A stretch of 27,086 nucleotides of DNA from a virus: positions 1 through 27,086 of the IMG/VR virus record IMGVR_UViG_3300044568_002998; one strand, 5' to 3'. Below, piece by piece: positions 599 to 20,399 of the stretch. Under the pieces are notes generated by a model that saw only the letters and a program-made list of their open reading frames with translations, was not told the origin of the DNA and made no database searches. The position numbers and the translations under genes were made by a program. The stretch's first letter is position 1. The number at the start of each line of letters is the position of its first letter.

Positions 599-3232
599 TT
601 AATTAACCCTAGAAATATCAAAATTGTAACATGGTAAGTCACCATTTTTTCTAGCTTTGAAACCATTTATCAATTTGCTAGAAGGTTTATTTAAATCTAG
701 TAACCCTTTATCTGTTAATTTACAACCAACACCCACTTCATTTGTATAAGGGTCAGTCACATTAGGTACTTTTATCGTGTAAACTATAGGACAATGACAA
801 CCATCTGGTGTCACTATGCTGTGCGTACCATCTGGTCTAACAAAATCCAAATAACCATCTTTTGGTGTTCTAATACTTTCCCATTCACATGAAATAGTAC
901 AACCACAATTACCATTGGAAGTACAACAAACATAACCACTATTCACTGTTACACCACCAACTACTTCCATTTGTGGAAATGGTATACCATTAAATTTAGT
1001 GCAACACTCTTTACTAGCATATATGCTAGTCCTTAATATTGGATTACCGTTATTATTAAAAATACTTCCATCCTTATTATACTGATAAAACGAGAAATTG
1101 TAAAGTCCATCATCATTATTTATTGTTGGTGATGTAGCTAGATTTGAATCACACGTTGGTGGTGGTGGGTCTTTTTTTGTAAGACAAAGACTTATAACAT
1201 TGTCAATACCTTCACATGGACACCCACATCCATTGTTAATTGTACCACCACTATATGGGTCTGAAATAACTGTTGGTCTAAAAATAACACACTCAGAAAT
1301 ATCTTCACCTAATAGCCCAGATGCCTCAACTGTATTTACATTAGTATTTATAGCTGTTTCATCATAAGTACCATTTTGGTTATTTGTAAATAAGTTTGTA
1401 CTACCAGTTGTTATAGTAGCTGAAGTAATAGTTACAGCGGTAAAGTTAGGTATTAGGTTATTAAATTGGTTAATATATTTATAACCACCATCATATGGTC
1501 CTAAGTGTGGATTATTACCAGTTAGGATATCAACATCTGATAATCCACCACCAGTTTGTCTATACCATAAACCATAGTTTTGAAAATACATATCTGGTGT
1601 GTCGGCAAATAGCTTTGGATAACCATTGGAATCAATTGGGTATGTACTTAAATCAGTACTTAACCCATTTAATTGTAATACTTCTTTAAATAAGTCCAAA
1701 TTAATTGGTCCTTTTGCTTTGTAAATGTGTTCGTTAAATTTAACCAATCCTTTAGGTGCCCCTATGAATCTTAATAAAAATTCTATCGATTTTCTAGCAC
1801 CTTTTGATTTCCAAATCCATGGTGAGTTAAGTATAAGTCTTCGCCATAATTCAATGTCGGCTTCGGCTGCTGTTAAGCCAACGCTTTGACCACTAAATGT
1901 GGAGTCACCTCTTTTTAAGTAATTAGATAGTAAGTTATTCTCAGTAACTGAAGAAATCAATTCCCAACCCAATACTTTGGCTAAATCTTTTAAATAAACA
2001 TCTGGTGTGTTATCTTGTTTATCATACGATACTGTATGTGCAAATTCAATACCAGTTATTAATTTATTTATTTCATCAAATTCTCTACCATATATTCTAA
2101 GTGTTTTATTGACTTTTTGACCAGATGTATCTTGGTGTAGTTCACTTAAATGTACTGGTGTTGTGTCAAAGTTAGATATTGATTCAGTAACTAAGAATCT
2201 ATTAATTAAATCACTAGATTTTAAATCATTTTTATTCGCTATATCAACCAATTTTGTAACAAAACGAATATAATCTGACGATTGAAAGTCAATGTTGTAA
2301 CCGTCTGATACTGGCCATGTAATTGATTCTTTAATATAAAATACTGAACCGTTATCTGTTGTTATTGGATACCTAAAAGATGATGTGTATTTTGGTGCTT
2401 CAAATCTATTTAATAAATAAGATTGAAAATCTGGTAAAGAATTGAAGAAGTGTTCTGCTTGTTCTTTATTTGGTTTTATATGGTAACTAATAACACCATT
2501 ACTTGAACCACCACTAAAAACATCCCCATTTACTTTAAAATATAAAATATCATTTAATAAATTTGTTGAACCAGTAAAATCTATTATTTTTGATTCAACA
2601 TTATTTAAGTATATAACATATGATGGGTATTCAATTGAAAGATTTCTAAGAGTATTTGCTTCATTAAATGTATTTAAAATAGTTCCGTTTTTTAGATAAT
2701 TTATTTCAAAATTGTTTTCTATAAAATTTGTTTTAACTTCGAACGTGGATGTATTTGTTAATAAATCATATGAATAATTTTCATATGTATAACCACTAAT
2801 AGCGTTACCATTAACATCAGATGCGTTAGTTTTTGTATATAGTGATGCTGGCCAATTTGTTATTATTTCTTCTAGAGAAACCCTAACATACTCAGTAAGA
2901 GAGCCAAATAGAGCATAATAATTAAGATTTGTTTTGTCTAAGTTAAGTTTAACATTTATGTTATTATTTAATATGGTTTGTACTTGTTTAGATGTAACCT
3001 TTAAATCGCTTAATGTTACAAAATTTGATAATTTTCTTGTGGTGAATATTTTATCATTTTTAGGTTCCATATTGGTTGTTATGGAAAAATTACCCATAGT
3101 AAACAATGTGGTACCAGTAGTATTACCTAATTGTCCACTAAGTAAATCTGGATTAAATGCTCTATATTCAATACCATTACCAAAAAATTCCTTTTTAGCA
3201 TAACCGACTACCTTAATTCTATAATTACTCAT
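599..3232 (-). CDS. Large tail protein with gpI-like (wedge) motif and Cys-rich C-terminus
   Basis: 877 aa. The start ATG at 3232 follows the upstream stop by 10 bases. Around residues 455-510 there is a segment of the form W-R-R-L-I-x2-S-x3-W-K-S-K-G-A-R-K-S-I-E-F-L-L-R-x2-G-x-P. This resembles the core of the phage tail protein I family (P2 gpI), whose members correspond to the T4 gp7 wedge arm. Together with the gp25-like (W) and gp6-like (J) genes in the same module, this suggests the third wedge component. The first roughly 640 residues contain no cysteine, whereas the last roughly 230 hold 17, including CGCPC, two CC pairs and CGC. That part could bind metal or form disulfides in the virion. 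The wedge assignment rests on one motif plus context. The N-terminal half and the Cys-rich domain are unassigned. Confidence 0.6.
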   Translation of the reverse strand: MSNYRIKVVGYAKKEFFGNGIEYRAFNPDLLSGQLGNTTGTTLFTMGNFSITTNMEPKNDKIFTTRKLSNFVTLSDLKVTSKQVQTILNNNINVKLNLDKTNLNYYALFGSLTEYVRVSLEEIITNWPASLYTKTNASDVNGNAISGYTYENYSYDLLTNTSTFEVKTNFIENNFEINYLKNGTILNTFNEANTLRNLSIEYPSYVIYLNNVESKIIDFTGSTNLLNDILYFKVNGDVFSGGSSNGVISYHIKPNKEQAEHFFNSLPDFQSYLLNRFEAPKYTSSFRYPITTDNGSVFYIKESITWPVSDGYNIDFQSSDYIRFVTKLVDIANKNDLKSSDLINRFLVTESISNFDTTPVHLSELHQDTSGQKVNKTLRIYGREFDEINKLITGIEFAHTVSYDKQDNTPDVYLKDLAKVLGWELISSVTENNLLSNYLKRGDSTFSGQSVGLTAAEADIELWRRLILNSPWIWKSKGARKSIEFLLRFIGAPKGLVKFNEHIYKAKGPINLDLFKEVLQLNGLSTDLSTYPIDSNGYPKLFADTPDMYFQNYGLWYRQTGGGLSDVDILTGNNPHLGPYDGGYKYINQFNNLIPNFTAVTITSATITTGSTNLFTNNQNGTYDETAINTNVNTVEASGLLGEDISECVIFRPTVISDPYSGGTINNGCGCPCEGIDNVISLCLTKKDPPPPTCDSNLATSPTINNDDGLYNFSFYQYNKDGSIFNNNGNPILRTSIYASKECCTKFNGIPFPQMEVVGGVTVNSGYVCCTSNGNCGCTISCEWESIRTPKDGYLDFVRPDGTHSIVTPDGCHCPIVYTIKVPNVTDPYTNEVGVGCKLTDKGLLDLNKPSSKLINGFKARKNGDLPCYNFDISRVN

Positions 3233-3242
3233 TTTGTCTTAA

Positions 3243-4172
3243 TTATAATGTTGTTACTGATGTAAATGTTTTTGTAAAATCAATACTAGCTCTTTCTTCT
3301 CTAACCTCAAACAATGGTTTACCAGTGAATTGGTCTTTGATTTCATAAAGATTGTATTGTTTATAAATATCATTGTTGAAGTTATAGATAGTGTAAATAC
3401 CATCTTCAAGACTTTTACTTTGATTACCGAATATTGCATACGCCAATGTTTCAATATCGTGTTCTACCATTTCAATCTCAAGCATAATCGGATTAAAAAA
3501 TGTGTTTGTGATAATCACTTGTTGGTTTGGTTGACCAATAAATGGTAATGTATTTGGTTTAACATTTGACGTTGAACTTGGGGATACGGTACAGTAAGTT
3601 AATGTTGAATTATCGTTAAAGCGATAACGTATTGCTTTTTGATTACTGTTTGTTAAGTTTTGATTAACTGGTTCAGCTCTATTGTTAGATGTGATAATTC
3701 TAAAGAAGTTATTTACTTTAGCGTCTTCAGCAGCTGTATTAGTATCAATATATTCAAGTCTATAACCAACCAACCCATTATTCTCAAATTTATTAACAAA
3801 TTGAGTTGGTATTGTTGATATATCAAATAAAACACCTTTGATGTCTGGATATGCGGATAATGCTCCGCAATCAACTATTTTAGTTCTAATCTCTACTGGT
3901 TTGATGTATATCGTATAAAAACCTTTAGCACCAAAAGTATCTACTGGTAATTTAAGTGTGTACATCCCACCAAACGCCTCAAAAACCTCTACATTTGATT
4001 GTGATTTATTAGGGTTATCAATTTTAATCAAGACTTCATTTGAGTCTAATTTTAATAAGTTAGTGTTACCAATCTTATCTCTAGATGGTGTGTAGTGGTA
4101 AAACACTTCCACATCATCTGGTGATATATCTGCTGGTCTTACAACACCATAAGTGCCCGTTGAAAAATACAT
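3243..4172 (-). CDS. Unrecognised tail-module protein, 309 aa
   Basis: 309 aa, starting MYFSTGTYGVVRPADISPDD. I do not recognise the family. It is Asn/Thr-rich and predicted to be mostly beta strand, with no signal peptide or membrane segment. The N-terminal 100 residues have a short-strand sandwich-like look (VEVFYHY, EVLIKID, GGMYTLKLP, GFYTIYIKP). It lies between the 292-aa and 877-aa genes in the tail module. A 109-base gap precedes it, containing two TATAAATA boxes, so it may begin a late transcription sub-unit with the 877-aa gene, 10 bases downstream. Baseplate or tail structural role is inferred from position. Confidence 0.7.
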   Translation of the reverse strand: MYFSTGTYGVVRPADISPDDVEVFYHYTPSRDKIGNTNLLKLDSNEVLIKIDNPNKSQSNVEVFEAFGGMYTLKLPVDTFGAKGFYTIYIKPVEIRTKIVDCGALSAYPDIKGVLFDISTIPTQFVNKFENNGLVGYRLEYIDTNTAAEDAKVNNFFRIITSNNRAEPVNQNLTNSNQKAIRYRFNDNSTLTYCTVSPSSTSNVKPNTLPFIGQPNQQVIITNTFFNPIMLEIEMVEHDIETLAYAIFGNQSKSLEDGIYTIYNFNNDIYKQYNLYEIKDQFTGKPLFEVREERASIDFTKTFTSVTTL

Positions 4173-4207
4173 AGTTATATTTGTTTATTTTTATTATATT
4201 TGTAATC

Positions 4208-4215
4208 TATTTATA
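4208..4215 (-). promoter_or_regulatory. Candidate T4-type late promoter box, proximal
   Basis: TATAAATA on the minus strand in the 4173-4281 gap, 35 bases before the ATG of the 309-aa gene. It fits the T4 late promoter core and lies between tail genes that would be expressed late. No Bacteroidetes-type TAnnTTTG element was seen in this gap. Confidence 0.45.
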
Positions 4216-4243
4216 CTTACCCTTAATTAAAACATAAATGATA

Positions 4244-4251
4244 TATTTATA
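4244..4251 (-). promoter_or_regulatory. Candidate T4-type late promoter box, distal
   Basis: A second TATAAATA on the minus strand, 36 bases upstream of the first in the same gap. It is embedded in an alternating A/T tract (TATATTTATAAATATA), so it reads on both strands and is weaker evidence than the proximal box. Confidence 0.3.
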
Positions 4252-4281
4252 AATATAAGAATATTTTTATCAAAGTATATT

Positions 4282-5160
4282 TCATTCTCTTTTTAGTTTA
4301 TAAAACCCATTTCCATATCTAGATAATTCACCTAAATCTTTTATTTCAGATAATCTTAAATGCATATCTAGAACACTGGTTTTACCCCTATCTACATAAA
4401 CATCACTTTGAACTTCTGGTGGAGTTGTTATACCAAATAAATATTCTTCTCTAGTAATTGCTGATAAAGAAATATTAGTTTCATTCCAACCTTCACTCAT
4501 ATAACTAAAGCTATTTAAATTTATTTGTGATTGTATATTATCGATTACAACATTTCTAGATGTTCCAGTATACTCTAAAAATTTGATACCATATACTTGT
4601 TTATCAGTACCTATATTACTATCAGCTATAGTGTCAAAAACATAGATTCTAGGTTCATCCATTGAATGTACTCTACTCACACCAGTTAATGATATATTTT
4701 TATAGTTTCTGTATGTCTCAGTATACATATCAAAACCAACTTTGTATTCATTAAGTATATCATATGATTTAAGCTCATCAATTCTACTTTCAGTTAACCC
4801 AGTTACTGTTGTGTTTCCATAAACATAATAGTTAGATATTACTTTATCTGGCATTCTTAATGTAAATTTATTTGTACCAGTTATACCAGTCATTTTTGGT
4901 GATGTGGCCCCAGCCATAAATGGAAATGTAATACCACTTGCTGATAGTTTATCGTTTAACAATGTATAGTCTGGTTGTGACTCAACCTTACCATCTTTAG
5001 GGATATAATCAATATCAGTGAACAACCCCATATCATCAATATTTTGAGTTAAATTAATCTTAAGGTAAAATGTGGTGGCAGTCATTACACCCCATGTAGG
5101 ACTATTAAGTGTTCTATCAACACTATTCTCTAAAAAAATTTTACGCTTAATTATTTCCAT
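4282..5160 (-). CDS. Unrecognised tail-module protein, 292 aa
   Basis: 292 aa, starting MEIIKRKIFLENSVDRTLNS. The start overlaps the stop of the upstream 285-aa gene by one base (TAATG), which points to translational coupling and co-assembly. I do not recognise the family. The last 35 residues contain a distinctive stretch, VDRGKTSVLDMHLRLSEIKD followed by LGELSRYGNGFY, that looks like a compact conserved C-terminal element with a helix and a Gly/aromatic end. The rest is Thr/Asn-rich and probably beta strand. There is no signal peptide or membrane segment. A baseplate or tail structural role is inferred from position. Confidence 0.7.
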   Translation of the reverse strand: MEIIKRKIFLENSVDRTLNSPTWGVMTATTFYLKINLTQNIDDMGLFTDIDYIPKDGKVESQPDYTLLNDKLSASGITFPFMAGATSPKMTGITGTNKFTLRMPDKVISNYYVYGNTTVTGLTESRIDELKSYDILNEYKVGFDMYTETYRNYKNISLTGVSRVHSMDEPRIYVFDTIADSNIGTDKQVYGIKFLEYTGTSRNVVIDNIQSQINLNSFSYMSEGWNETNISLSAITREEYLFGITTPPEVQSDVYVDRGKTSVLDMHLRLSEIKDLGELSRYGNGFYKLKRE

Positions 5161-6017
5161 TATGTTGCTAATATTTGATACAGTTTAACTGTTATGTTAT
5201 CCGTGTTTACAACTTCAGTTACATTATTTGGTGTAGGTGGAGTGGTATTAGGGGTATTATATGTTGTATCTATTTGATAGAAAAACCCTTTATCTGTTTT
5301 AGTTAATATATATCTAGTATATAGTTTTTTAATTAATTTTTCAATTGGTAGAGCTTTATCGTTAACCATAAGATTAGTTACTTTACCAGTTTTAGCGTTT
5401 TTAAATGTTGCTTTCATATATAGAGATTTTGGTGCTCCATTCATGATTAGCTCATCCTTAAAATCGTAGAGATAGTATCCATTTGATTTACCTCTTAGAT
5501 TAATTATTGGGTTTTCACATATGAATGTTAATTTTATTTCAGATGCTGGTTTTGTTTGACCTAACGCTAAGTTTGATGTTGTCGGTTGTGATTGATTTAA
5601 ATCACTTTTAGATAAACTAGGGTTTAATGTGATAAAACTTAATAGGTTTTGTGTTAATGGGCTATCACTATCATAAAAAGATAAATTAAGGAATGTTTGT
5701 TTAAATCTTTCAGTTTCAAATTTAATATCATCATCAGTAAACCCTATTGAACCGTATGTTGTTTTACCACTTAAATCTAATTCATACGTTATTTTATTAA
5801 CAACTTTCTTATTTGAATTAATTGGTTTAAATCTAGTTTTTTCGTAATCAACAATTGGGTTGATAGTTTTTTCTACTTCAATATCAACAAATACTCTCTC
5901 AATTATTTCAGATTGGTCAACGATTTGATACTCCAAATTTATTGGAATATTAATCGTAGTTGCTGTGGTAGCACTAGATAAAGTTGATAGGTTTATTTGG
6001 TATTGATTTACAAACAT
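5160..6017 (-). CDS. Unrecognised tail-module protein, 285 aa
   Basis: 285 aa, starting MFVNQYQINLSTLSSATTAT. The family is not recognised. A central stretch near residues 105-130 (ERFKQTFLNLSFYDSDSPLT) stands out as a likely conserved core. It is followed by a Ser/Gln/Asn-rich segment and a region rich in beta-strand-like sequence (FICENPIINLRGKSNGYYLY). The C-terminal 40 residues are Thr/Asn/Pro-rich. It overlaps the next gene by one base, so the two are probably translated together. A 40-base spacer holding seven TAA units on the coding strand precedes it. Structural role is inferred from position. Confidence 0.7.
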   Translation of the reverse strand: MFVNQYQINLSTLSSATTATTINIPINLEYQIVDQSEIIERVFVDIEVEKTINPIVDYEKTRFKPINSNKKVVNKITYELDLSGKTTYGSIGFTDDDIKFETERFKQTFLNLSFYDSDSPLTQNLLSFITLNPSLSKSDLNQSQPTTSNLALGQTKPASEIKLTFICENPIINLRGKSNGYYLYDFKDELIMNGAPKSLYMKATFKNAKTGKVTNLMVNDKALPIEKLIKKLYTRYILTKTDKGFFYQIDTTYNTPNTTPPTPNNVTEVVNTDNITVKLYQILAT

Positions 6018-6031
6018 TCTTTTATTTTAAT

Positions 6032-6052
6032 TTATTATTATTATTATTATTA
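6032..6052. repeat. (TTA)7 microsatellite in a tail-operon spacer
   Basis: Seven perfect TTA units (TAA on the coding strand) occupy half of the 40-base spacer between the 595-aa and 285-aa genes. The tract follows the upstream stop closely and ends about 15 bases before the next ATG. Confidence 0.85.
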
Positions 6053-6057
6053 GTTTT

Positions 6058-7845
6058 TTAACAAACTTCATCCTCACTATTGATTGTGTATTTATCCGTA
6101 ATTCTTTCACCATATGGGTCTGCTGGGAATTCGTTGTAATACAACCCCCAATCATTAAATGCATCTTGCCTTCTAACATAAAAACAATCATTTAAATGCA
6201 TGTAATGTGAACCATTTAAAAATGGATAATCTAAAGCTTTTTCGTCAGATTGGTTGTATCCAATACTTAACAAGTCTCGCCATAAATATCTACCATCATC
6301 TAATTTAACAGCATATGATGGTATACCTACAGTGCTTGAATCACCTAATTCTACATATGGAGAAAAATCTCTAATTCTTATTAATTGGTGAGCCTTATAG
6401 AAATACCCTTCTTGTCTAGGACCTAAATTAATTGTTTCTGTTGTTGGATTGAACCCAACAGTTTTATAATATGAGAAATTAGTTTCTGTTTCTCGATTTT
6501 TTGTATTAAATCTATGGGAAACATCAGCCAATATTATTTCTTGAACTTCAATTTTATTATATTCAACCAAATCACCATAAAACTCGTTGTTGATATCCAT
6601 ATCAACTTTGTATTCCAAAGGATTATGTGTTGGGAATGGTAAACTATTTTGATTATTACCACCGTTGTGTATTAAATTAATAGCTGGTATATCTCTTAAG
6701 TATGATTTTATTTTACTATCTTTTAAATCTTGTATATATGGTGTTTCAATACCAGATGATACCCTAGTGAACAACCCATTGCTACTGGTTTTAACCCTAG
6801 TTAGGTATAACTCACTTAAGGGTCTATCTAAATTATCAACCAATCCAGTTATATCAATATCTTCATTGAAAACGAATTGAACTATGTCGTCATTAAATAC
6901 GTTTTCACTAAACGCTAATTTATATACATCACAATCATCTTTTTCAATTATTGGTTTGTTTATAGTTTTTATTTTTTTAAAAATTCTGAAATAATAATCA
7001 GATTCAAACCCATTTACAACTCTTTTCATTCTAGAGTTTGTTGATACAGAACCACTTATTGGTAATTCAATTACAAAATAATAATCCTTTAAATCACCAT
7101 TATCCAAACCTAACCTAACAACTGTGTGTGTTCCATCATAATCATTGGTTCCAGTTATTTTTACTGTATCACCAATATTTAAATTATGTAAACACCCTAC
7201 ACCAAAAGCCGTCATTTCTTTTGTTGAAACCAAGCTTGGGGTAGCGTTTAATAACAACAACCCACCATTAACCATTGAATGGTTTGAATCTTTTTTATAT
7301 GGGTAAGTAATTGTTAAATCCCAATTTTTGACTGGTCCATCACCTAATTTACCACCATATGGTTTTATATCTTGTAAAAATGAAAAACGCTCCCTAGTTG
7401 GTTCCATATCGTAAAAATTACACGAACCACCTTTGCTTTTATCTGGTTCACGATACCCAAACCAACCGTCAATCTCCAATAAATTATTTTTATAAGATTC
7501 GTTGTAGCTTATGTCATTTAAATCAGTTACATTATTATTTTTAGGGAATGATTTATCTAAGAATAAAATATCATTAAGACCTTTCCATGTGTTAATACCA
7601 GTTGGAGAATCTAAATTAAATAAAGGGTTTGAACTATTAGAGTTTATTGTTCCTAGGATTCTATAAATTTTACTATTTTGTCTTTCTAAATCAAATCTTT
7701 CACCAACATCAACAATTTTTTCAATTTCACCTGGTGGTAACAATTTTTCTTTACCGTCCAAATTAATTTTGATAAAAGTATCTGTATTACTAGACTTTTT
7801 TGAAGTCTCAACAGTTAATCTTTGTTGTATTCTATTTATACTCAT
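6058..7845 (-). CDS. Unrecognised tail/baseplate structural protein, 595 aa
   Basis: 595 aa, starting MSINRIQQRLTVETSKKSSN. It begins 5 bases after the stop of the 1413-aa gene, so the two are cotranscribed. I do not recognise the whole protein. Around residues 222-265 is a small beta unit of the type G-D-T-V-K-I-T-G-x2-D-Y-D-G-T-H-T-V followed by Y-Y-F-V-I-E, a pattern seen in short beta-rich domains of many phage tail proteins. The C-terminal third is rich in Tyr, Trp and Arg/Asp (for example residues 515-570), which suggests a surface-exposed or receptor/peripheral module. The leader has GGG close to the ATG (AAGGGTAATG), the nearest thing to a Shine-Dalgarno sequence in the window, but this may be chance. 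No enzymatic motif was found. Confidence 0.7.
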   Translation of the reverse strand: MSINRIQQRLTVETSKKSSNTDTFIKINLDGKEKLLPPGEIEKIVDVGERFDLERQNSKIYRILGTINSNSSNPLFNLDSPTGINTWKGLNDILFLDKSFPKNNNVTDLNDISYNESYKNNLLEIDGWFGYREPDKSKGGSCNFYDMEPTRERFSFLQDIKPYGGKLGDGPVKNWDLTITYPYKKDSNHSMVNGGLLLLNATPSLVSTKEMTAFGVGCLHNLNIGDTVKITGTNDYDGTHTVVRLGLDNGDLKDYYFVIELPISGSVSTNSRMKRVVNGFESDYYFRIFKKIKTINKPIIEKDDCDVYKLAFSENVFNDDIVQFVFNEDIDITGLVDNLDRPLSELYLTRVKTSSNGLFTRVSSGIETPYIQDLKDSKIKSYLRDIPAINLIHNGGNNQNSLPFPTHNPLEYKVDMDINNEFYGDLVEYNKIEVQEIILADVSHRFNTKNRETETNFSYYKTVGFNPTTETINLGPRQEGYFYKAHQLIRIRDFSPYVELGDSSTVGIPSYAVKLDDGRYLWRDLLSIGYNQSDEKALDYPFLNGSHYMHLNDCFYVRRQDAFNDWGLYYNEFPADPYGERITDKYTINSEDEVC

Positions 7846-7850
7846 TACCC

Positions 7851-10800
7851 TTATTTCGTTTTTATTGTTATATTACAACCAACACCATCAGTTAATGTTG
7901 TTGTCATTGTTGATGAATTGTTAATTTTTGAATCACCTATATTTTTTAGGTCATTATTGCTTGATGAAATGATACCTTTACCACCAGCACCATATAGAGT
8001 GTGGTTATAGACACCAAACGCTATTAATTGTGTGTTTATACTACCATATAATGGTATTGTTGGTAATTGTATTACAGATTTATTTATAGTTATTGTATTT
8101 GAATAACAATCAGTTGTACCATATCTAACTCTAATACTAACTTTGTCACCAATATCACCTTTAGGTATTTTAATATTAATAGGTGTAGAATTATCAATAT
8201 ATGGGACAATTTTTGGTATCCAGTCACCATTTATATCTAAATACTCTACATTAGCTGTATTTGTTGAGTTAAATTCATAATCCAAAGTAAAAGTGATATC
8301 GTATTCAACATTTGAACATTGTTTATTCAATTGTTGTACAGTACCAGATGTCAATGTCATCTTAGGATTTATATTAATTATTTCTGTTGTTAAAACACAA
8401 CTTTGCGGTGTTGGTGAGCTATCGGTTATAGTAATCGTATATGTACCTATAGATAATTCAGATAAATTAGCACTAGTTGATAAGAATCCATTTGGTCCAA
8501 TTACTTTATATGAGTATGGTGTTTTACCATCTTTTGGTGTTATAATTATTTTACCGTTATTACCATCACTACATATTACATCAGTTTTATCTATACTACC
8601 ACTAACTATTGGTACTGCTTTGATTATTAATTTATCAATAACAATGATGTCACCAGAACTATCAGTAATAATTAAAGTGTAACCGATTGGGTCTAAGTGT
8701 GGTAATTTGGTTATAACATCAGAGGTTGCTGGTGTTATTGGTCCTTTAACTATATTACCCTTGTCATCTTTTAATGTATATGTATATGGTCCAACACCAT
8801 TTATGATGGATGTGATTGTTATTTCACCATCATTACTAATTGTTGTTTTTGCGTTTTTACTAACATAAGCTTCTGCTCTTAATGGTTGTGGGCCATATAC
8901 TGTAACGTTTTTAGTTACTAAATTACCTAACGAATCTATACCAGATATCGTATAAACACCAACACCTAGATTAGATATTGTTATATTAGTGTCAGAGTTT
9001 GTGACACCATCTGATGATGTATTAGGTCCAGTTACGTTATAGGTTATTGGTGATGTGCCACCTTTAAAACTAAAAGTAATTGAACCAGTTGTAGCATTCT
9101 TATCTGTATTTGTTGTGTCATATTTAATAATTAAAGTGTCTCTTATTGGTTTATAACACTCAGTAAAATACCTACTATTCATTTTATGCAATGCAGTTTT
9201 ACCATTCATTAACCCAAAGTAAAAATAATAAGAATTTTTAGGTTGTGAGTAACCATCTGTGGTTTTTGGGTAGTATCCTTTAAACTCTAAATAATCTGAA
9301 CCATTATCCTTAGCATCGATTAAATTATATATATCAGTATTATTGATGTTAAATTCAGACGTTACATATTTTGATGGATATTTAAATGAAGTTATTGATT
9401 GTTTATTCATCAAATAGAAATAATCTCTAAATAATTTTCCAGTATCATCATCGATATCATTAGACCCAATAATACCATCTGGTGGTATTATTAATCCGTA
9501 CGGGTCGTATGCAATATCATCAATTTCAACGCCAAATTCACATATGTGTCTAACGTTGTTACAGCCTTTGTATGGTACATGTATACCAAGACAGTCAACA
9601 TTAAAGAATAAAAAAGGTGCAGTATTTGATGCAGTAATAGTTGAAGTAATAGTTGAAGTAATATTAGATAATTCTAACATACCAGATTCTATAACCTCTT
9701 CTTTTCCATTTATTATGTCTTTTTCAGCAATAGCTGGGACTGACTTATATGTTGTTGGTGTTAATAAATGGTTTAATTTTGGTATACCTTGCCAATCACA
9801 CTCAAATATTGAACCTAGACAAACTATATCAGTAGCAAATAATTTATGAGGCGAAGGTAATTTTGAAATATTTGGGACATTAGGGGCAAAATAATGTGTT
9901 GTTGCAGCATAATATAATGTTTCATTAACTTTTTTAATTAACCCTTCATATATCTCGTCATCAACACCATTATTTTGTGATTCATAATTACCAAGGCCTT
10001 GGTAACATGAATCAACCAAATGTTGAGTCCTACAACTATTATCTGGTGTTCCATTTTGATTACTATCAACTCCAGTATAATCTTCTACAGAATCGATACT
10101 AAACATATCACAATCATATTCACAGAATGTTTCACGACCACTATTATTTTTACTCTTAGGTCTTTTCCTTTTGTATTTTAATAAATAAGCATATAAAGAA
10201 CCATTAACCCATTCATTATAAAAATCAAACCCAAACATACCCATGGATTTTGCCATTTGGAATGATAAACAATCTGATAAACCTTCAGTGTAAAGGATAG
10301 GATACGATTCTTTTAACTTAACGTATCCACCACCCCAACCGTATGGTAATGTTGTATCAACTTCATCGTATGTGTCACCTAAATTATACCCGAATAATTC
10401 ATGTATACAATTAGGTGCGAAAACATATTCTGTACCATCTTCACCACCGCACGTGCTTTTAATATTAATACAACCTATATAGTCTGCTTTTTCTAGTTTA
10501 TACTCATCAGGTTTCATTTCATTTTTGTCTGGTAAGAAAATATTTACAGCACTTATTATAGCACCTATAAATTTATTTAGTGTTTCAGTTATACTTCTTA
10601 CTACCCAAATAACAGAGTTTATTGAAGGTATAAGTGTACCGTTAAGTGTTGATAATAATGAAATAATAATAGTTATAATAACACACATAACAGAAAAAAT
10701 TGGGTTTATTTGTGTGTTTATCCTATTATACGGGAATGCTGTTTTCTCACCAGTACATGATTCGTTATCAACGTCTTTAATACCAGTATGGTGATTACCA

Positions 10801-12092
10801 TTCATATGGGTTGTTCTCTGGAATCTTGGTATGAAGCTTTTTACTGTGTATATTTTATTCCAATACATATCATAAAAACTACTATCTTTGGTTGCTGGAC
10901 TATCAGATGTGGCAATACCAAAATAATAATCAACCTCACTTTTTTGTGTTGGGTTATTAGGTACTAAATATTTACCTCTTAACCGTTTTCTATTTTCACC
11001 ACCAGTTTCATCCATATCTATTCTAAATCTAACACTAGTTTTAGTTGGTATACCTACTTTAGGGTCTTGTGAGTAAATTAAATTACCTTCTTCATCTGTA
11101 ACTACATAATCTAAATTCATTGGTACTTGATAAGCCCATGTACCATCTTCATCAATTACACGACCACCCTCTACATCAAATCTTTCAATGTCACCATTAT
11201 CGGTTTTTCTAATCATTTCGATTGTCCCTTCACCAGTTACTTGTTGACATAGTTCACCCATGTCAGCTCTTGGTCTACAATGTCTATTAACACTATTTTT
11301 TTCGTTGTCACCAAATATACTACCCATGAATATTGCTGAAGGTGTTATATCGTAATTTAATGGTACATCTAACCTAGTTATACCTATTTCACAACTATCA
11401 GTATCACCCCAAAATGGTTGAACATTTACGCCAATATTGGCTGTTTTAATTTGTAATAATTTATCTAAATTGGTACCACCTTTAAATTTTGTTGATGATT
11501 CAAACATCTTTTCTGGTGTACCTTGTTGAATCAAATCATAAGGTCTTTGTGATATAATACCAATATCGGATATATCAGCATCCACATGTACAGTGTACGT
11601 ACCCAATGGAACACCAAATAACATAAAATCACCAGCGTGGTTTGTTGTTGTTGTATGCTTATAATATTTACAATAGATTTCCAATATGGTTGGGTTATCT
11701 AAAACTTCTCTTTTGTTTGGGAAAGTACCTATGGGTGTAAAACAATCATTATCTGGTACTGGATTTTTAGGTAATAAATTATATCTTTTACCATCGGTTG
11801 TTTTATCATTAACAGTTTCAAATGGGTATATATTCCTAATCTCAGCGTCTTTCTTATCATTCTCGTCTATTGGTAAAAATACACTTACTTTGGCGTTAGG
11901 AACACCAAACCCATTATTAACAGTCACCCTACCAACAATAGTACCATAATCAGAACAAAACTTAGTGTAAGCCTCATCTTGTGAAATCTTAAGGCTTAGG
12001 ATTTCAATAAAATCAAACTCTTGCTCTAGATTTACTTTGATATATTTATCATCACCATTTGGTGTTGTTTTAATTCTTATAGTGTTAGACAT
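7851..12092 (-). CDS. Giant multidomain tail protein with SprB-like repeats
   Basis: 1413 aa, the largest gene here. Residues 49-172 look like a carboxypeptidase-regulatory-type (transthyretin-like) beta domain. It has the pattern G-x-V-x5-G-x2-V-P-N-A-K-V-S-V, then a long insertion, then A-G-D-F-x-L-x-G-V-P-L-G-T-Y-T-V-x-V. Residues about 300-375 may hold a second similar unit. Residues about 460-520 are strongly hydrophobic and contain two or three potential membrane-spanning stretches, which is unusual in a tail protein. Residues about 995-1070, 1080-1160 and 1170-1240 are three repeats with the SprB-type pattern (G-x-I-x-(I/F), G-x2-P-(Y/I)-(T/S)-Y, G-x-Y-T-(I/L)-x-(I/G)-x-D-S). Known SprB repeats occur in the flavobacterial gliding adhesin and related surface proteins. 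A peripheral baseplate or host-contact role is inferred. Confidence 0.7.
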   Translation of the reverse strand: MSNTIRIKTTPNGDDKYIKVNLEQEFDFIEILSLKISQDEAYTKFCSDYGTIVGRVTVNNGFGVPNAKVSVFLPIDENDKKDAEIRNIYPFETVNDKTTDGKRYNLLPKNPVPDNDCFTPIGTFPNKREVLDNPTILEIYCKYYKHTTTTNHAGDFMLFGVPLGTYTVHVDADISDIGIISQRPYDLIQQGTPEKMFESSTKFKGGTNLDKLLQIKTANIGVNVQPFWGDTDSCEIGITRLDVPLNYDITPSAIFMGSIFGDNEKNSVNRHCRPRADMGELCQQVTGEGTIEMIRKTDNGDIERFDVEGGRVIDEDGTWAYQVPMNLDYVVTDEEGNLIYSQDPKVGIPTKTSVRFRIDMDETGGENRKRLRGKYLVPNNPTQKSEVDYYFGIATSDSPATKDSSFYDMYWNKIYTVKSFIPRFQRTTHMNGNHHTGIKDVDNESCTGEKTAFPYNRINTQINPIFSVMCVIITIIISLLSTLNGTLIPSINSVIWVVRSITETLNKFIGAIISAVNIFLPDKNEMKPDEYKLEKADYIGCINIKSTCGGEDGTEYVFAPNCIHELFGYNLGDTYDEVDTTLPYGWGGGYVKLKESYPILYTEGLSDCLSFQMAKSMGMFGFDFYNEWVNGSLYAYLLKYKRKRPKSKNNSGRETFCEYDCDMFSIDSVEDYTGVDSNQNGTPDNSCRTQHLVDSCYQGLGNYESQNNGVDDEIYEGLIKKVNETLYYAATTHYFAPNVPNISKLPSPHKLFATDIVCLGSIFECDWQGIPKLNHLLTPTTYKSVPAIAEKDIINGKEEVIESGMLELSNITSTITSTITASNTAPFLFFNVDCLGIHVPYKGCNNVRHICEFGVEIDDIAYDPYGLIIPPDGIIGSNDIDDDTGKLFRDYFYLMNKQSITSFKYPSKYVTSEFNINNTDIYNLIDAKDNGSDYLEFKGYYPKTTDGYSQPKNSYYFYFGLMNGKTALHKMNSRYFTECYKPIRDTLIIKYDTTNTDKNATTGSITFSFKGGTSPITYNVTGPNTSSDGVTNSDTNITISNLGVGVYTISGIDSLGNLVTKNVTVYGPQPLRAEAYVSKNAKTTISNDGEITITSIINGVGPYTYTLKDDKGNIVKGPITPATSDVITKLPHLDPIGYTLIITDSSGDIIVIDKLIIKAVPIVSGSIDKTDVICSDGNNGKIIITPKDGKTPYSYKVIGPNGFLSTSANLSELSIGTYTITITDSSPTPQSCVLTTEIININPKMTLTSGTVQQLNKQCSNVEYDITFTLDYEFNSTNTANVEYLDINGDWIPKIVPYIDNSTPINIKIPKGDIGDKVSIRVRYGTTDCYSNTITINKSVIQLPTIPLYGSINTQLIAFGVYNHTLYGAGGKGIISSSNNDLKNIGDSKINNSSTMTTTLTDGVGCNITIKTK

Positions 12093-12095
12093 AAA

Positions 12096-12446
12096 TTATT
12101 TACTATCTGTTTTTTGATATGTTATATTTTCGACATCCATCAACTCATACTCATCTTCGTCATCATAGTAATCATCATCATCATCATCATCATCATCATT
12201 ACTATTATTCACATTTTTGAATGCTTTAACCATAAATTTTAATATTCCAGTTATGTTGACATCTTTATTTAAAACAAAAGTCCTAAATAAAATCCAAATA
12301 CTAGCAATTACTATTATTGGTAAAGTTAATAATGATAATGAAAACATTATGATTCTAAGTGAATAATTAATAGTCCTTTTTGTTAAGTTAACATCTGAAG
12401 CAACACTATATTCATTACCATCTTTTTTGCAGTTACATCCACTCAT
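12096..12446 (-). CDS. Small membrane protein with poly-Asp tail, 116 aa
   Basis: 116 aa, starting MSGCNCKKDGNEYSVASDVN. It has a Cys-x-Cys near the N-terminus, one long hydrophobic segment (about residues 30-58) and basic residues just before it. The C-terminal half holds nine consecutive Asp (residues 84-92), then further Asp/Glu/Tyr. No known family is recognised. It lies 3 bases upstream of the 1413-aa gene and 4 bases downstream of the GIY-YIG gene, so it is cotranscribed with the tail module. One transmembrane span with an acidic tail could mean a membrane-associated assembly factor, or a virion component acting at the host membrane. Neither can be shown from sequence. Confidence 0.7.
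   Translation of the reverse strand: MSGCNCKKDGNEYSVASDVNLTKRTINYSLRIIMFSLSLLTLPIIVIASIWILFRTFVLNKDVNITGILKFMVKAFKNVNNSNDDDDDDDDDYYDDEDEYELMDVENITYQKTDSK
12171..12197. repeat. (ATC)9 microsatellite coding for poly-Asp
   Basis: Nine perfect ATC units, read as GAT codons on the minus strand, encode the nine-Asp run in the 116-aa membrane protein. All nine use the same codon, as expected from slippage. Confidence 0.9.
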
Positions 12447-12450
12447 AATA

Positions 12451-13038
12451 TTAATTTATTATCTCCCATTTATGGTTAAAAATTGTTCTCCTAACTGAAC
12501 CATTTAAACCGTTATTTATTTTTTTACCCCTTAAGCAATTAGATAGAACACCTCTTATTTTACTATTTAAACTATTAGTGAATTTATTATTAATTAAATA
12601 ATCAGCAGCTTCAACTAAATTATCAAAGAAAATTTCTTCACCAGAACTAAGATTTATTAATTTAAATGTATTAAAATTACCATTATTTTTTATTTTTGTT
12701 TTTGACATTTTTATTTTTGTACTTAAATTAAAATTATTCCGTCTAAGATTACCAACAGTAGCTAAATTATATCCTAATAAACTATTCATTGAACCAAAAT
12801 AATCAATATAAAAATTCTCTCTATCAGATAACATATTTTCACAACAAATCTCAACAATTTCAAAATTAAAATTATCTAACCCATCTCTATTCACTGCATT
12901 TTGTAAATGAATATTATGATGATTATTTGCTTTTAACATATATTTATGGTTTTTTAACCTTACATCAATTTCTATTGAACTTCCGATATAAACTTTACCA
13001 TCTAAAGTATTAATTATTTTGTAAATCCCACAACCCAT
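12451..13038 (-). CDS. Free-standing GIY-YIG homing endonuclease
   Basis: 195 aa. The GIY-YIG nuclease domain fills residues 1-85, with G4-I5-Y6, Y17-I18-G19, R27 (in DVRLKNH) and E74 (in DRENFYIDYFG). These match the catalytic residues of I-TevI-type and Seg enzymes. After a Lys/Asn-rich linker, residues about 126-150 (LSSGEEIFFDNLVEAADYL) look like a NUMOD-type DNA-binding helix, and a basic C-terminus follows. Such genes cleave an allele lacking them and spread by repair. It sits between gp6 and the 116-aa membrane protein on the same strand, with no disrupted reading frame, so it is an intergenic insertion. It looks more AT-rich and AAT/AAA-heavy than its neighbours. An inverted repeat lies just upstream. 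Confidence 0.9.
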   Translation of the reverse strand: MGCGIYKIINTLDGKVYIGSSIEIDVRLKNHKYMLKANNHHNIHLQNAVNRDGLDNFNFEIVEICCENMLSDRENFYIDYFGSMNSLLGYNLATVGNLRRNNFNLSTKIKMSKTKIKNNGNFNTFKLINLSSGEEIFFDNLVEAADYLINNKFTNSLNSKIRGVLSNCLRGKKINNGLNGSVRRTIFNHKWEIIN

Positions 13039-13104: not shown

Positions 13105-14922
13105 TTACTTAACTCTAATTTTGATATCTTTAGTTGGTTCTAATATCTCAAACATACTTGTCGGTTCACCGAACAGTGTGTAATCACCAGTTAAATCAAT
13201 TTGTCTTGTTTCAGCATCTAGATATGGTTGTGATATCTCATTTAAACTGTATATTCCACCAACCTTGTTATAAACTCTTAAATCAATAACATTGATTACG
13301 CCACCCACGTTATTAATCTCTTTTAACAAGTTTGAAACATAGATGTTATCACCCATTTGATATTTATTGATATCCATGTAATTTTGTACGTCTGTTATTA
13401 CTTGTGATATTACTTGTGATTGTGTAACTTGCTTGTCAATATATAAATCAATTTCAAAACCTAAATGAATAATTCTACCATCAGTAATAGTTACGTAATC
13501 ATTAAGCATTCTGTAATCAGCTAAATAAGTTGATATATTATCTTTTAATGCACTTGTTGATGAATTCGTTAAATTAGAATCCCCATCTAAACCTAAAACA
13601 TATACATTAATTTTGTTCATTTCTTCAAACACACCACATCTAAATGGTACACCAAATTTACCTGGCATTTGTGATATTCTAGATTGGTAATCTTTAATTG
13701 TTACAGCTCTATTTTGTGCGGAAAAATTATATCTAACCATATTTCTAACTTCATCAACACTAGGTACATCTCTACCGCCTAATGCTGGAAATGCGTTATT
13801 AACTGTTAATGAATTTTTAACTGCATTATTTATTTGTTGGTTACCCCCAATAACACTAACATCAGCTAACCCAACACTAGTTAATAAATTAACACCGACA
13901 TTTGTGTCTGAACCACCACCAACTCTATATTTAACAAACATAGTTGTATTTGCTGTAGGTGTTTCACCCAATGACATATTATTAATGAAATCACCAATTT
14001 GATTTGCTAATGCTGAATTAGAATCAAAATCACAAAGACTTGATGTGTCTTTAGTTCCAGAACCAAATATTAATTTAGTGAAACCTAAATCTGTGTATTC
14101 ACGAATAAATTTTTTGGTTACTGATATAAACTTACCTGGTCTTACACCAGCATTGTCAGTAGTTTTTGTATTATCTTCAATAAAAACTTTATCTTCAGCC
14201 AACGCATCCATCTCAAACCATCTGTTTGTAATATCTAAGAATTGTGTGTTAGTTGGTTGGGTAACAAAATCAGTACCTTTCAATGAAATCACTGAATCAA
14301 TAGAAATAACATTATCGTCTGGTAATGATAATTCAAAGAATGGTCTAACATCATTAGAATTTATTACCCTTTTAAATATCTTAGTAAACCCATTAATAAC
14401 CATTTCCCTTTTGGTTATAGTATAGTTAATGATAGTACCATTCGAATCTACATTAGGTATAATTAGTCTATTTGGTATACCACCAATAGTAAATGGATTT
14501 GAAAAATCAATATCGTTACTTGTCTCAAAAACTTTACCCCCACCAGTTACTTGTGCACCAGCTCTGATTATTGGTGCGTATGATGAATCAAATGTATCAC
14601 CAAATACTGGTACTTTAACACTAAAATCAACAATGGTTACTGATGGTCTTTTTCCAGGTATCTTTAACCCAAATGTCCTAGCTAAAGACATTACTGATTT
14701 TTTCTCTTGTGCGTAATCTATTTGTGTCTCTTGAAACATCCTATCGGTGTTTACTGATAACATATCGCCAACCGCTGCGTTTAACTCTAAAAGCATCATA
14801 CCTACAGATGCATCATTAAAATCATTGAAAATGTCTGGATAATACTTCCTAACCATATCTATTAATTCAGCTCTTATGTCCGCGAAATTCCTACTTGTAT
14901 ACCCAATTCCTTGATTTGCCAT
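13105..14922 (-). CDS. gp6: Baseplate wedge protein, gp6 / BaseplateJ-like
   Basis: 605 aa, close in size to T4 gp6. The N-terminus has the family's typical layout: a short lead with YTSRNFADIRAELIDMV, then D-A-S-V-G-M-M-L-L-E-L-N-A-A-V-G-D-M-L, then a segment with the DYAQEKKSVMSLARTFGL pattern (residues about 45-90). This is the helical entry of gp6/gpJ proteins. The middle is beta-rich. Residues about 395-415 carry NRAVTIKDYQSRISQMPG, also typical of the family. gp6 subunits form the continuous inner ring of the baseplate together with gp25 and the gp7/gpI arm. The gene is separated from gp25 by an oppositely oriented endonuclease gene and followed by a GIY-YIG endonuclease gene. A short A-rich leader (AAACAAAACAAATATG) without Shine-Dalgarno precedes the start. 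Confidence 0.88.
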   Translation of the reverse strand: MANQGIGYTSRNFADIRAELIDMVRKYYPDIFNDFNDASVGMMLLELNAAVGDMLSVNTDRMFQETQIDYAQEKKSVMSLARTFGLKIPGKRPSVTIVDFSVKVPVFGDTFDSSYAPIIRAGAQVTGGGKVFETSNDIDFSNPFTIGGIPNRLIIPNVDSNGTIINYTITKREMVINGFTKIFKRVINSNDVRPFFELSLPDDNVISIDSVISLKGTDFVTQPTNTQFLDITNRWFEMDALAEDKVFIEDNTKTTDNAGVRPGKFISVTKKFIREYTDLGFTKLIFGSGTKDTSSLCDFDSNSALANQIGDFINNMSLGETPTANTTMFVKYRVGGGSDTNVGVNLLTSVGLADVSVIGGNQQINNAVKNSLTVNNAFPALGGRDVPSVDEVRNMVRYNFSAQNRAVTIKDYQSRISQMPGKFGVPFRCGVFEEMNKINVYVLGLDGDSNLTNSSTSALKDNISTYLADYRMLNDYVTITDGRIIHLGFEIDLYIDKQVTQSQVISQVITDVQNYMDINKYQMGDNIYVSNLLKEINNVGGVINVIDLRVYNKVGGIYSLNEISQPYLDAETRQIDLTGDYTLFGEPTSMFEILEPTKDIKIRVK

Positions 14923-15026: not shown

Positions 15027-16652
15027 TTGAAAAAAAAGACGAGGCAAGAATTTATAACTGAAGCTAAAGAAATGCATGGTGATAAATATGATTATACGTT
15101 AGTTGATTATATTAATAACATGGAAAAAGTTAAAATAATATGTAAAATACATGGTGTTTTTGAACAAGCACCAAGTAAGCATTTATTGGGTCAGTCTTGT
15201 CCAGAATGTTCTCGTAAAAATCTTAGTGACACACAAAGAAAAAGTTCCTTTAATTTTATATCTGAAGCTAAAGAAATACATGGTGATAAATATGACTATA
15301 CGCTAGTTGATTATGTTAACTATAAAAATAAAGTTAAAATCATTTGTCCGACACATGGTGTTTTTGAGCAATCACCAAGTAACCATTTAAGTGGTAAAGG
15401 GTGTTTATATTGTGGTGGTACTAGTGGTATGGATAAAACTTTATTTATTTTAAAAGCTAAAGAAATACATGGTGATAAATATGACTATACGCTAGTTGAT
15501 TATGTTAACTCACACACAAAAGTTAAAATAATTTGTGCGACACATGGTGTTTTTGAACAATCGCCAAATAATCATTTATCAAAAAAACAAGGTTGTTATA
15601 AATGTTTAGATAAAATACATGATACTGATTCGTTTATAAGAGTATCTTCTTTGGTACATAATAACAAATACGATTATTCTTTAGTTCAATATGATGGTAT
15701 AACTAAAAAGGTTAAAATTATTTGTGATATCCACGGAGAATTTAATCAACGATGTGATTCACATAAAAATGGTTTTGGGTGTCCTAGCTGTAGTAATAGC
15801 ATTTCTAATGATGAAAAAGATGTGGCTTATTTTATTGAATCATTAAATGTTAAAATAGAAGAAAATAATAGAACAATATTAAATAATAAGGAATTAGATA
15901 TATACATACCATTACATAACCTAGCTATTGAATATAATGGTTTGTATTGGCACTCTGAAGAATTTATCTCTTCAGATTATCATCTAAATAAAACAATTGA
16001 ATGTGAGAAACAAGGTATTCAATTAATCCATGTATTTGAAGATGAATGGTTGTATAAGCAAGATATTGTTAAATCTAGATTAATGAATATCTTAGGGTTA
16101 ACACCCAATAAAATATATGGTAGGAAGACACAGATACGAGAAGTATCATCAAAAGACGCTAAACTATTCTTAACTAATAATCACATACAAGGAAACGTTA
16201 ATTCAAGTATCAAACTAGGATTATATTATAATGATGAATTAGTTAGTCTTATGACATTTGGTAAGGGGAGAGTAATGATGGGTGGTGACTCAAATCAATA
16301 TGAATTACTTAGATTCTGTAATAAATTAAATACAACAGTTATTGGTGGTGCTGATAAACTATTAAAACATTTTATAACTAAACATAACCCAAAAGAAATC
16401 ATTAGTTACGCAGATAGAAGATGGAGTCAAGGTCAATTGTATGAAAAGTTGAGTTTTGATTTTGTTCATGATTCTAAACCCAACTATTTCTATATAATTA
16501 ATAAAAAAAGAGAATATAGGTTTAAATATAGAAAAGATGTTCTAATTAAAGAAGGATTTGACTCAACTAAAACAGAACATCAGATTATGTTAGATAGAGG
16601 TATATCTAGAATCTATGATTGTGGCAATAAGAAATATATATTTAAATGTTAA
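15027..16652 (+). CDS. Homing endonuclease, Vsr/EDxHD-like with four zinc-type repeats
   Basis: 541 aa, the only plus-strand gene. A TAA lies two codons upstream of the TTG at 15027, so the start must be this TTG or a later ATG at 15072. TTG is preferred because it keeps the first repeat complete. Residues 9-61, 77-129, 140-193 and 202-255 are four repeats built as A-K-E-(I/M)-H-G-D-K-Y-D-Y, then (K)VKIIC-x2-HG, then C-x2-C. They resemble DUF723-type units, and the Cys/His pattern suggests zinc-binding DNA recognition. Residues 288-345 carry E-L-D-I, E-Y-N-G-x2-W-H and H-L-N-K-T-I-E, then G-I-Q-L-I-H-V-F-E-D-E-W, which fits a Vsr-like PD-(D/E)xK nuclease as in EDxHD homing enzymes. The C-terminal 180 residues are probably an additional DNA-binding part. 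Its last 11 bases overlap the 3' end of gp25. Confidence 0.85.
   Translation: MKKKTRQEFITEAKEMHGDKYDYTLVDYINNMEKVKIICKIHGVFEQAPSKHLLGQSCPECSRKNLSDTQRKSSFNFISEAKEIHGDKYDYTLVDYVNYKNKVKIICPTHGVFEQSPSNHLSGKGCLYCGGTSGMDKTLFILKAKEIHGDKYDYTLVDYVNSHTKVKIICATHGVFEQSPNNHLSKKQGCYKCLDKIHDTDSFIRVSSLVHNNKYDYSLVQYDGITKKVKIICDIHGEFNQRCDSHKNGFGCPSCSNSISNDEKDVAYFIESLNVKIEENNRTILNNKELDIYIPLHNLAIEYNGLYWHSEEFISSDYHLNKTIECEKQGIQLIHVFEDEWLYKQDIVKSRLMNILGLTPNKIYGRKTQIREVSSKDAKLFLTNNHIQGNVNSSIKLGLYYNDELVSLMTFGKGRVMMGGDSNQYELLRFCNKLNTTVIGGADKLLKHFITKHNPKEIISYADRRWSQGQLYEKLSFDFVHDSKPNYFYIINKKREYRFKYRKDVLIKEGFDSTKTEHQIMLDRGISRIYDCGNKKYIFKC
15265..15321 (+). repeat. 57-bp perfect direct repeat, copy 1
   Basis: Identical base for base to 15454-15510, 189 bases downstream. 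It covers the AKEIHGDKYDYTLVDYVN part of repeat 2 in the endonuclease. The identity includes silent positions, which points to recent duplication or gene conversion. Confidence 0.95.
15454..15510 (+). repeat. 57-bp perfect direct repeat, copy 2
   Basis: Second copy of the 57-bp direct repeat, in repeat 3 of the endonuclease. The corresponding part of repeat 1 (from about 15060) differs at several bases, and repeat 4 has diverged much further. Confidence 0.95.
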
Positions 16653-17028
16653 TTGTCACAAAATCTTCCGTTTGGAAAACACCATCTATTATTGTGTAGT
16701 TTATATTTACCACAACAGCAAATTCACTAAATTCTGATTCACTTACTTTTATGTCAGTTATCGATAAATTAGGTAAATATTTTTTAACAACAGTCTTTAT
16801 TTCATCTTTAATCATGGATAATGTTAAATCATCATTTGGTTCAAATATGAACCTAAGTAATTCAGTACCAAAATCTGGTAAATAAAGTCTTTGACCCTTT
16901 CTAGTTAGTATTAAATGCATCAAATCAGCTTTTATTGCAGCATTTTCATCTGAATTGATATCTAAGAAGAACCCATCTACACTGTCCTTGAAGGGAAAAT
17001 TTATATTTATATAAGATTTACTACCCAT
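16642..17028 (-). CDS. gp25: Baseplate wedge protein, gp25 / gpW-like
   Basis: 128 aa, matching the size of T4 gp25 (about 132). Residues 28-68 carry the family signature: A-A-I-K-A-D-L-M-H-L-I-L-T-R-K-G-Q-R, then L-P-D-F-G-T-E-L-L, then F-I-F-E-P. In contractile tails this protein joins gp6 (J) and gp7 (I) in the wedge core and helps start sheath assembly. It is the first gene of the tail module and follows the nrdA terminator, so it needs its own promoter. The 3' end overlaps convergently by 11 bases with the plus-strand endonuclease. The leader has no Shine-Dalgarno. Confidence 0.9.
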   Translation of the reverse strand: MGSKSYININFPFKDSVDGFFLDINSDENAAIKADLMHLILTRKGQRLYLPDFGTELLRFIFEPNDDLTLSMIKDEIKTVVKKYLPNLSITDIKVSESEFSEFAVVVNINYTIIDGVFQTEDFVTINI

Positions 17029-19432: not shown

Positions 19433-19445
19433 AATTTATTTTTTT

Positions 19446-20399
19446 TTATATTTCCTCATCAAATGATATAGGACCACTTAAATCGGCTGATTTGTATTCT
19501 GTAGAACGACCTTCAAAGAAATTTTGTTTTGTTTTCAACGCAATTTGATTCATGAATTCAAACGGATTTTTTGAATTAAATTCTTTATCACAATTAAATT
19601 GAACCAATAACCCATCAACAACAAATTCTAAATACTGCTTCATCAAATCAGAATTCATACCAATAAGTGATACTGGTAATGACTCAGTAATAAATTCCTT
19701 CTCAATTTCCAATGCCGATAATAAAATCTCTCTAATTCTTGATTCGTTTGGTTTATTAACCAAATGATTATTAACCAAATGGATGGCGAAATCACAATGT
19801 AAAGCTTCATCTCTAGAAATAAAAGAATTTGTATCACAAAGACCTGGCATTAAACCCCTAGACTTTAAATAAAATATACTACAGAACGAACCAGAAAAGA
19901 ATATACCTTCAACAGCAGCGAATGCTACTAATCTTTCAGCGAATGATTCAGATTCAATCCATTTTAAAGCCCACTCAGCCTTTTTCTTTACTGGTGGCAT
20001 ATATTCGATAGCTTTGAATGCTTTATTGCGTTCTTCCACATCTTTAATGTATGTGTCGATAAGCAAAGAATACATATGACTATGAATATTTTCCATCATG
20101 ATTTGAAAACCATAGAAAAACTTAGCTTCAGTATATTGAACTTCTTTTAAGAAATTCTCTGCTAAGTTTTCATTTACAATACCGTCAGACGCGGCAAAGA
20201 AAGCCAAAACATTTGTTATAAAGAAACGTTCGTTATCTGTTAGTTTGTTATTCCAATGGTCAATATCTTTTGATAAATCCACTTCTTTCTGTGTCCACAT
20301 AGCGTCTTGTGCTATCTCATAATATTCAAATAAATCTTGATGAACAATTGGGAATAGTACAAATCTATCTTGGTTGTGTTTTAATATAGGTTCTTTCAT
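19446..20399 (-). CDS. nrdB: Class Ia ribonucleotide reductase, small (radical) subunit
   Basis: 317 aa. All di-iron ligands are visible: D72 ([11 protein letters not shown]), E103 and H106 (MENIHSHMY), E164 (AVEGIFFSG), E198 and H201 (RDEALHCDF). The radical tyrosine is Y110. The spacing D72-E103-H106-Y110 and E164-E198-H201 matches mouse R2 (139-170-173-177 and 233-267-270). It generates the tyrosyl radical for NrdA. The acidic C-terminus (GPISFDEEI) would dock on NrdA. The residue after ENIHS is His, where mouse R2 has Glu; it is not a metal ligand. The gene starts 1 base after the helicase stop and is probably translationally coupled. It is shorter at the N-terminus than cellular R2 proteins. 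Confidence 0.97.

Follow-up and report, generated by a model that had tools for sequence, protein, structure and literature searches.

A baseplate-cassette protein of T4-like, very probably Bacteroidota-infecting phages carries a SprB/Ig-like repeat array with a probable adhesive role

The window, that is, the whole stretch of DNA analyzed here (27,086 nt), is a 27-kb IMG/VR fragment of a T4-like phage. On its minus strand, a gp25-type baseplate wedge gene (16642–17028; PHROG baseplate wedge, E=5.3e-21) and a gp6-type, Baseplate_J-like wedge gene (13105–14922; PHROG baseplate wedge, E=3.1e-20) precede the gene of a 1413-aa protein, P0001 (7851–12092), which was defined by its open reading frame, synteny and viral relatives. 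Between gp6 and P0001 lie a GIY-YIG endonuclease gene (12451–13038) and then, immediately upstream of P0001, the gene of a 116-aa protein with one predicted transmembrane (TM) segment and a run of nine Asp residues (12096–12446, minus strand; assigned by sequence and synteny). Downstream, the tail cassette continues on the same strand with proteins of 595, 285, 292, 309 and 877 aa (599–7845), which keep this order in the relatives. The arrangement gp25-gp6-(116)-P0001-595-285-292-309-877 was conserved at nearly all fetched viral loci, which agrees with the first-pass annotation of P0001 as a tail protein. A homologue of the 116-aa protein occupies the same upstream place in most P0001 relatives. 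Between gp25 and gp6, the opposite strand encodes a 541-aa protein (15027–16652, plus strand) that combines DUF723/treble-clef zinc-finger repeats with matches of the MTES_1575 nuclease type and of a Mom-family-like kind, and most relatives have nothing at this place. Together with the GIY-YIG gene, the 541-aa gene looks like a selfish insertion into the tail cassette. The window also encodes ribonucleotide reductase, replicative helicase, single-strand-binding and recombinase-type genes, as judged from reading the sequences and partly backed by searches.

All 19 window genes lack a Shine-Dalgarno-like leader; their leaders are A-rich, as is typical of Bacteroidota. The window NrdB is 64–68% identical to the chromosomal NrdB of four Bacteroidota genomes. 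In a DNA search with the first 20 kb of the window, 109 of 395 Bacteroidota genomes matched, mostly via nrdA/nrdB, some of these matches being low-complexity ones around 12.15–12.2 kb. The nrd genes alone matched 13 of 194 cyanobacterial genomes at the DNA level, most of them weakly. The nrdA/nrdB region (17120–20399) matches Bacteroidota DNA with up to 71% identity over ~480 bases, and higher over some shorter stretches, which suggests that the phage acquired these genes from Bacteroidota. The missing Shine-Dalgarno leaders and the Bacteroidota-like nrdA/nrdB, which bear on the host indirectly, thus agree with the host link put forward in the first-pass annotation, and the virus very probably infects Bacteroidota.

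A tblastn search with P0001 found no relative in ~50,000 sequenced phage records, and 330 viral contigs encode one; 80 of these contigs were kept for analysis. The P0001 design is widespread in a large clade of T4-like and jumbo phages, with contigs reaching 380 kb. Two proteins at a similar position, of 1265 aa (immuto) and 1336 aa (Mel-JY01), were considered as relatives and rejected by hhalign. The Mel-JY01 protein is instead related to the 877-aa protein of the window, and the immuto match is marginal.

P0001 splits at an invariant Cys at residue 979. The conserved core (residues 1–979, 9156–12092) ends at an invariant FFT-x-C motif and is 42–77% identical across 12 relatives, whereas the C-terminal part is 22–66% identical and of variable length. 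Searches of the core against PHROGs, Pfam and the PDB returned nothing beyond a weak CarboxypepD_reg match, so the core represents a baseplate-cassette family absent from PHROGs. This weak match concerns the carboxypeptidase-regulatory domain previously assigned to the N-terminus: it is partial (residues 145–173, 11574–11660) and stays below the Pfam threshold (PF13620, 22.1 bits, cut-off 32.3), but the same weak match recurs in 11 of 13 P0001 relatives, and a domain of this kind may be real. In gene position, directly after gp6, P0001 resembles T4 gp7, but no profile similarity to gp7, gp8 or gp10 was detectable (hhalign probability below 1% for each), and homology of the core to these proteins was rejected. 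The AlphaFold model of the core, built from an alignment of 13 sequences, was poor (pLDDT 36.7), and its best-scored part is a long helix from residue 464 to 519 (10536–10703). This helix is strongly hydrophobic and TM-like, with a TM-like 19-mer at residue 465, inside a protein of the baseplate cassette; a 19-residue Kyte-Doolittle maximum of at least 2.1 was present in 95 of 95 P0001 relatives.

The C-terminal region (residues 980–1413, 7854–9155) is an array of SprB/Ig-like domains, delimited by Pfam SprB matches, the AlphaFold model and fast evolution. Full-length P0001 matches the SprB family PF13573 with 37.7 bits (cut-off 28; E=1.6e-9), and the C-terminal 444 aa alone reach 47.5 bits (E=1.3e-12). 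Three tandem units had been read from the sequence, and the Pfam analysis recovered two of them with passing stretches, at residues 1086–1109 (8766–8837) within unit 2 (residues 1065–1157, 8622–8900) and at residues 1168–1200 (8493–8591; 32.8 bits, above the cut-off and the strongest stretch) within unit 3 (residues 1158–1244, 8361–8621). Unit 1 (residues 985–1064, 8901–9140) is sub-threshold and has no Pfam match of its own, but it aligns with the other units and was modelled as a beta-sandwich, so that tandem repetition comprises two passing stretches and a third aligned unit; some relatives of P0001 show three SprB stretches. Furthermore, the array reaches beyond residue 1240, near which the three units read from the sequence end: approximately two further beta domains (residues 1245–1413, 7854–8360) run on to the C-terminus, visible as AlphaFold strands in a variable region of the alignment that Pfam does not recognize.

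The AlphaFold model of the array (mean pLDDT 85.7) is all-beta, with multiple domains arranged like beads on a string, and its low pTM is as expected of flexible beads. Its structural matches were chains of Ig and fn3 beads, and also fragments of GhpA, the grappling hook surface protein of Aureispira; a phmmer search of the array against the PDB gave chance-level matches only. The fold is therefore generic, while the sequence family, SprB, is specific. Within the viral structure library, the best and fourth-best matches were A0A6J5LD72 and A0A6J5LDA4, two proteins of uncultured Caudovirales phages that carry the name ‘SprB repeat’, indicating that SprB-bearing phage proteins have already been deposited. 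They are structurally similar to the array and known as database names; literature searches found no paper discussing them, and full-text searches found none linking phages with SprB repeats in the sense of such an array.

SprB was matched by 13 of 13 full-length P0001 relatives and by 58 of 62 C-terminal arrays (best E=1.9e-24), so the signal in P0001 is more than chance. Among the cellular genomes sampled, SprB is a Bacteroidota repeat: 43 of 198 Bacteroidota genomes score above the cut-off, compared with 0 of 194 cyanobacterial genomes and 0 of 14 well-known control genomes. These results bear on the reading that the array consists of ordinary Hoc-type phage Ig domains, for which SprB is just the nearest Pfam model, with no Bacteroidota link. 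T4 Hoc is Ig-like, accessory and variable, and the array shares these traits. Moreover, 3 of 13 P0001 relatives match Hoc-like PHROGs (best E=3.1e-10), which blurs the boundary with generic phage Ig domains, and an array profile weakly found phage decoration proteins in the PDB. However, P0001 itself has no PHROG match at E<=0.01, and hence no Hoc-like one, and none of the Ig control proteins, from T4 (Hoc), T5 (pb6) and cyanophage MED4-213, matches SprB in Pfam, where they hit I-set, PKD or Big_2 instead. Hoc also sits on the head, whereas the P0001 gene is in a baseplate cassette. With a significant SprB match and negative Ig controls from unrelated phages, in addition to the Bacteroidota distribution of the repeat, a Hoc-type array is already disfavoured and we regard it as improbable.

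Two relatives lie in bins without SprB, namely L024 (QCKH01000004.1), on an 84-kb contig from the single-cell genome of a Prochlorococcus, and L025, which comes from a Bacteroidales MAG of the rumen. Both phage proteins also lack a SprB match, as would be expected if the array were adapted to the host, although these are two cases whose hosts are assigned by binning only. L024, on which psbA was not found, could be an unusual cyanophage or a sorting carry-over; the tail of its P0001 relative is non-SprB.

We then considered how the array has evolved. Units at the same position in different phages score 107–128 against each other, compared with 51–72 for units within one protein, and units 1–3 align across relatives that are only ~36% identical as proteins. 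This positional orthology indicates that the three proximal units predate the diversification of the phage clade, so that the array is old and mostly vertically inherited within it. The proposal that the repeats were taken from the host therefore finds no support in the form of a recent capture. Such a capture, from a gliding adhesin of the current host that the repeats mimic or engage, could draw on the 140 of 180 phage units that match bacterial SprB proteins directly at E<=1e-3, and on the proposal that phage receptors of Flavobacterium columnare belong to the gliding machinery (PMC7345892). Yet the relations between units point to an old acquisition, making a recent capture very unlikely.

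Divergence proceeds faster in the array than in the core, as in the comparison of the window with L003 (core 77%, array 65%). All 10 close pairs compared showed a higher dN/dS in the array, by a factor of 1.6–4.2 over the core, with dS broadly similar, but the array values of 0.14–0.57 are below 1, so that the faster evolution may reflect relaxed constraint and not adaptation. Divergence is gradual; swapping of whole arrays between close relatives was mostly not seen, the main candidate being L042/L045 (core 78%, array 38%), and a search of 15 viral records for a diversity-generating retroelement found no reverse transcriptase. At four loci the protein consists of the core only, stopping 1–4 residues past it with the downstream genes intact. 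On the tree, L070, L080 and L095 group together and the fourth locus, L064, represents a separate lineage, so two events have to be assumed. The faster evolution and the clean absence in two separate lineages indicate that the array is modular and dispensable in some settings.

These features bear on the main rival to an adhesive array, in which the array would be a passive spacer or a stabilising baseplate decoration without a ligand, changing fast under relaxed constraint. A dN/dS below 1, gradual divergence with no wholesale swaps and the complete absence of the array tolerated twice would all suit a spacer. In contrast, domain number and sequence vary strongly among the arrays, of which 58 of 62 nevertheless remain recognizable as SprB, and nearly all lineages retain an array of 330–640 aa. 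On balance we consider a passive spacer possible but doubtful.

We therefore favour, with a probability of roughly 0.6, the reading that P0001 is a baseplate/tail protein of T4-like, very probably Bacteroidota phages whose SprB/Ig-like array is adhesive. In this proposal, the 979-aa core would build P0001 into the tail as a structural element of the baseplate, placing it in the virion, and the chain of SprB/Ig-like beta-sandwich domains would project, exposed, from the C-terminus of the core. Its contacts with the host surface would be auxiliary and of low specificity, with envelope glycans, capsule or surface adhesins as candidate ligands, and would precede the action of dedicated receptor-binding fibres. 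The array is thus probably a host-phylum-flavoured accessory adhesive, an optional extension of the tail. Since related phages exist with and without it, they offer a natural experiment in which the role of the array could be tested cleanly.

The closest parallel to the P0001 array is found in the tails of crAss-like phages, which carry tandem repeats of BACON, an Ig-like domain that also occurs in Bacteroidota surface proteins (de Jonge et al. 2019, PMC6949934). The crAss-like BACON arrays are in a tail-associated protein encoded beside the tail genes, with one poorly conserved end, and were proposed to bind the host surface (PMC6949934). P0001 shares with them a tandem Ig-like domain that is common to Bacteroidota surface proteins and a tail-adjacent phage protein, but differs as follows: First, the domain family is another one, and no BACON family was reported in Pfam scans of P0001 and its relatives. 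Second, the cassette is that of a T4-like myovirus. Third, the array is attached to a core, large and conserved, of which versions without an array exist. The tail use of Bacteroidota surface domains thereby extends from BACON in crAss-like phages to another domain family in the clade of T4-like and jumbo phages.

Compared with the SprB gliding adhesins of Bacteroidota, P0001 has repeats of the same family, PF13573, over the curated cut-off, although its units score lower than the best bacterial ones (33–37 bits against ~50–61). P0001 is encoded in a phage baseplate operon and its N-terminus, MSNTIRIKTTPNGDDKYIKVNLEQEFDFIE, has no hydrophobic signal peptide as judged by direct reading of the sequence. 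The only trace of a T9SS sorting domain, Por_Secre_tail, was insignificant (12.5 bits, cut-off 27; E=0.18) and lies away from the C-terminus. Lacking an apparent signal peptide and a significant sorting domain, P0001 is not itself a gliding adhesin. Given the proposal on the F. columnare receptors, it is reasonable to suppose that the array may contact the gliding machinery. A more specific version is a long shot: the array would bind the SprB-bearing adhesins of a gliding host, or the layer of their ligands, through direct contact between repeats or via a shared glycan, and the moving adhesins would capture and carry the virion. If so, the repeats on the host surface and those on the phage tail would be two sides of one interaction.

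SprB repeats also occur in other proteins of the viral records. One phage contig (L108; G015:C1, around 64008) encodes, ~13 kb from its P0001 homologue, a second SprB-bearing protein of 1761 aa with YVTN-type beta-propeller-like repeats, as recognized by reading. In a 642-kb record deposited as phage (L114; LR756502.1, 515485–516432), a 1675-aa SprB-array protein has, again by reading, a signal-peptide-like N-terminus and an end resembling a T9SS type-B sorting domain, and it reads like a complete Bacteroidota-style adhesin.
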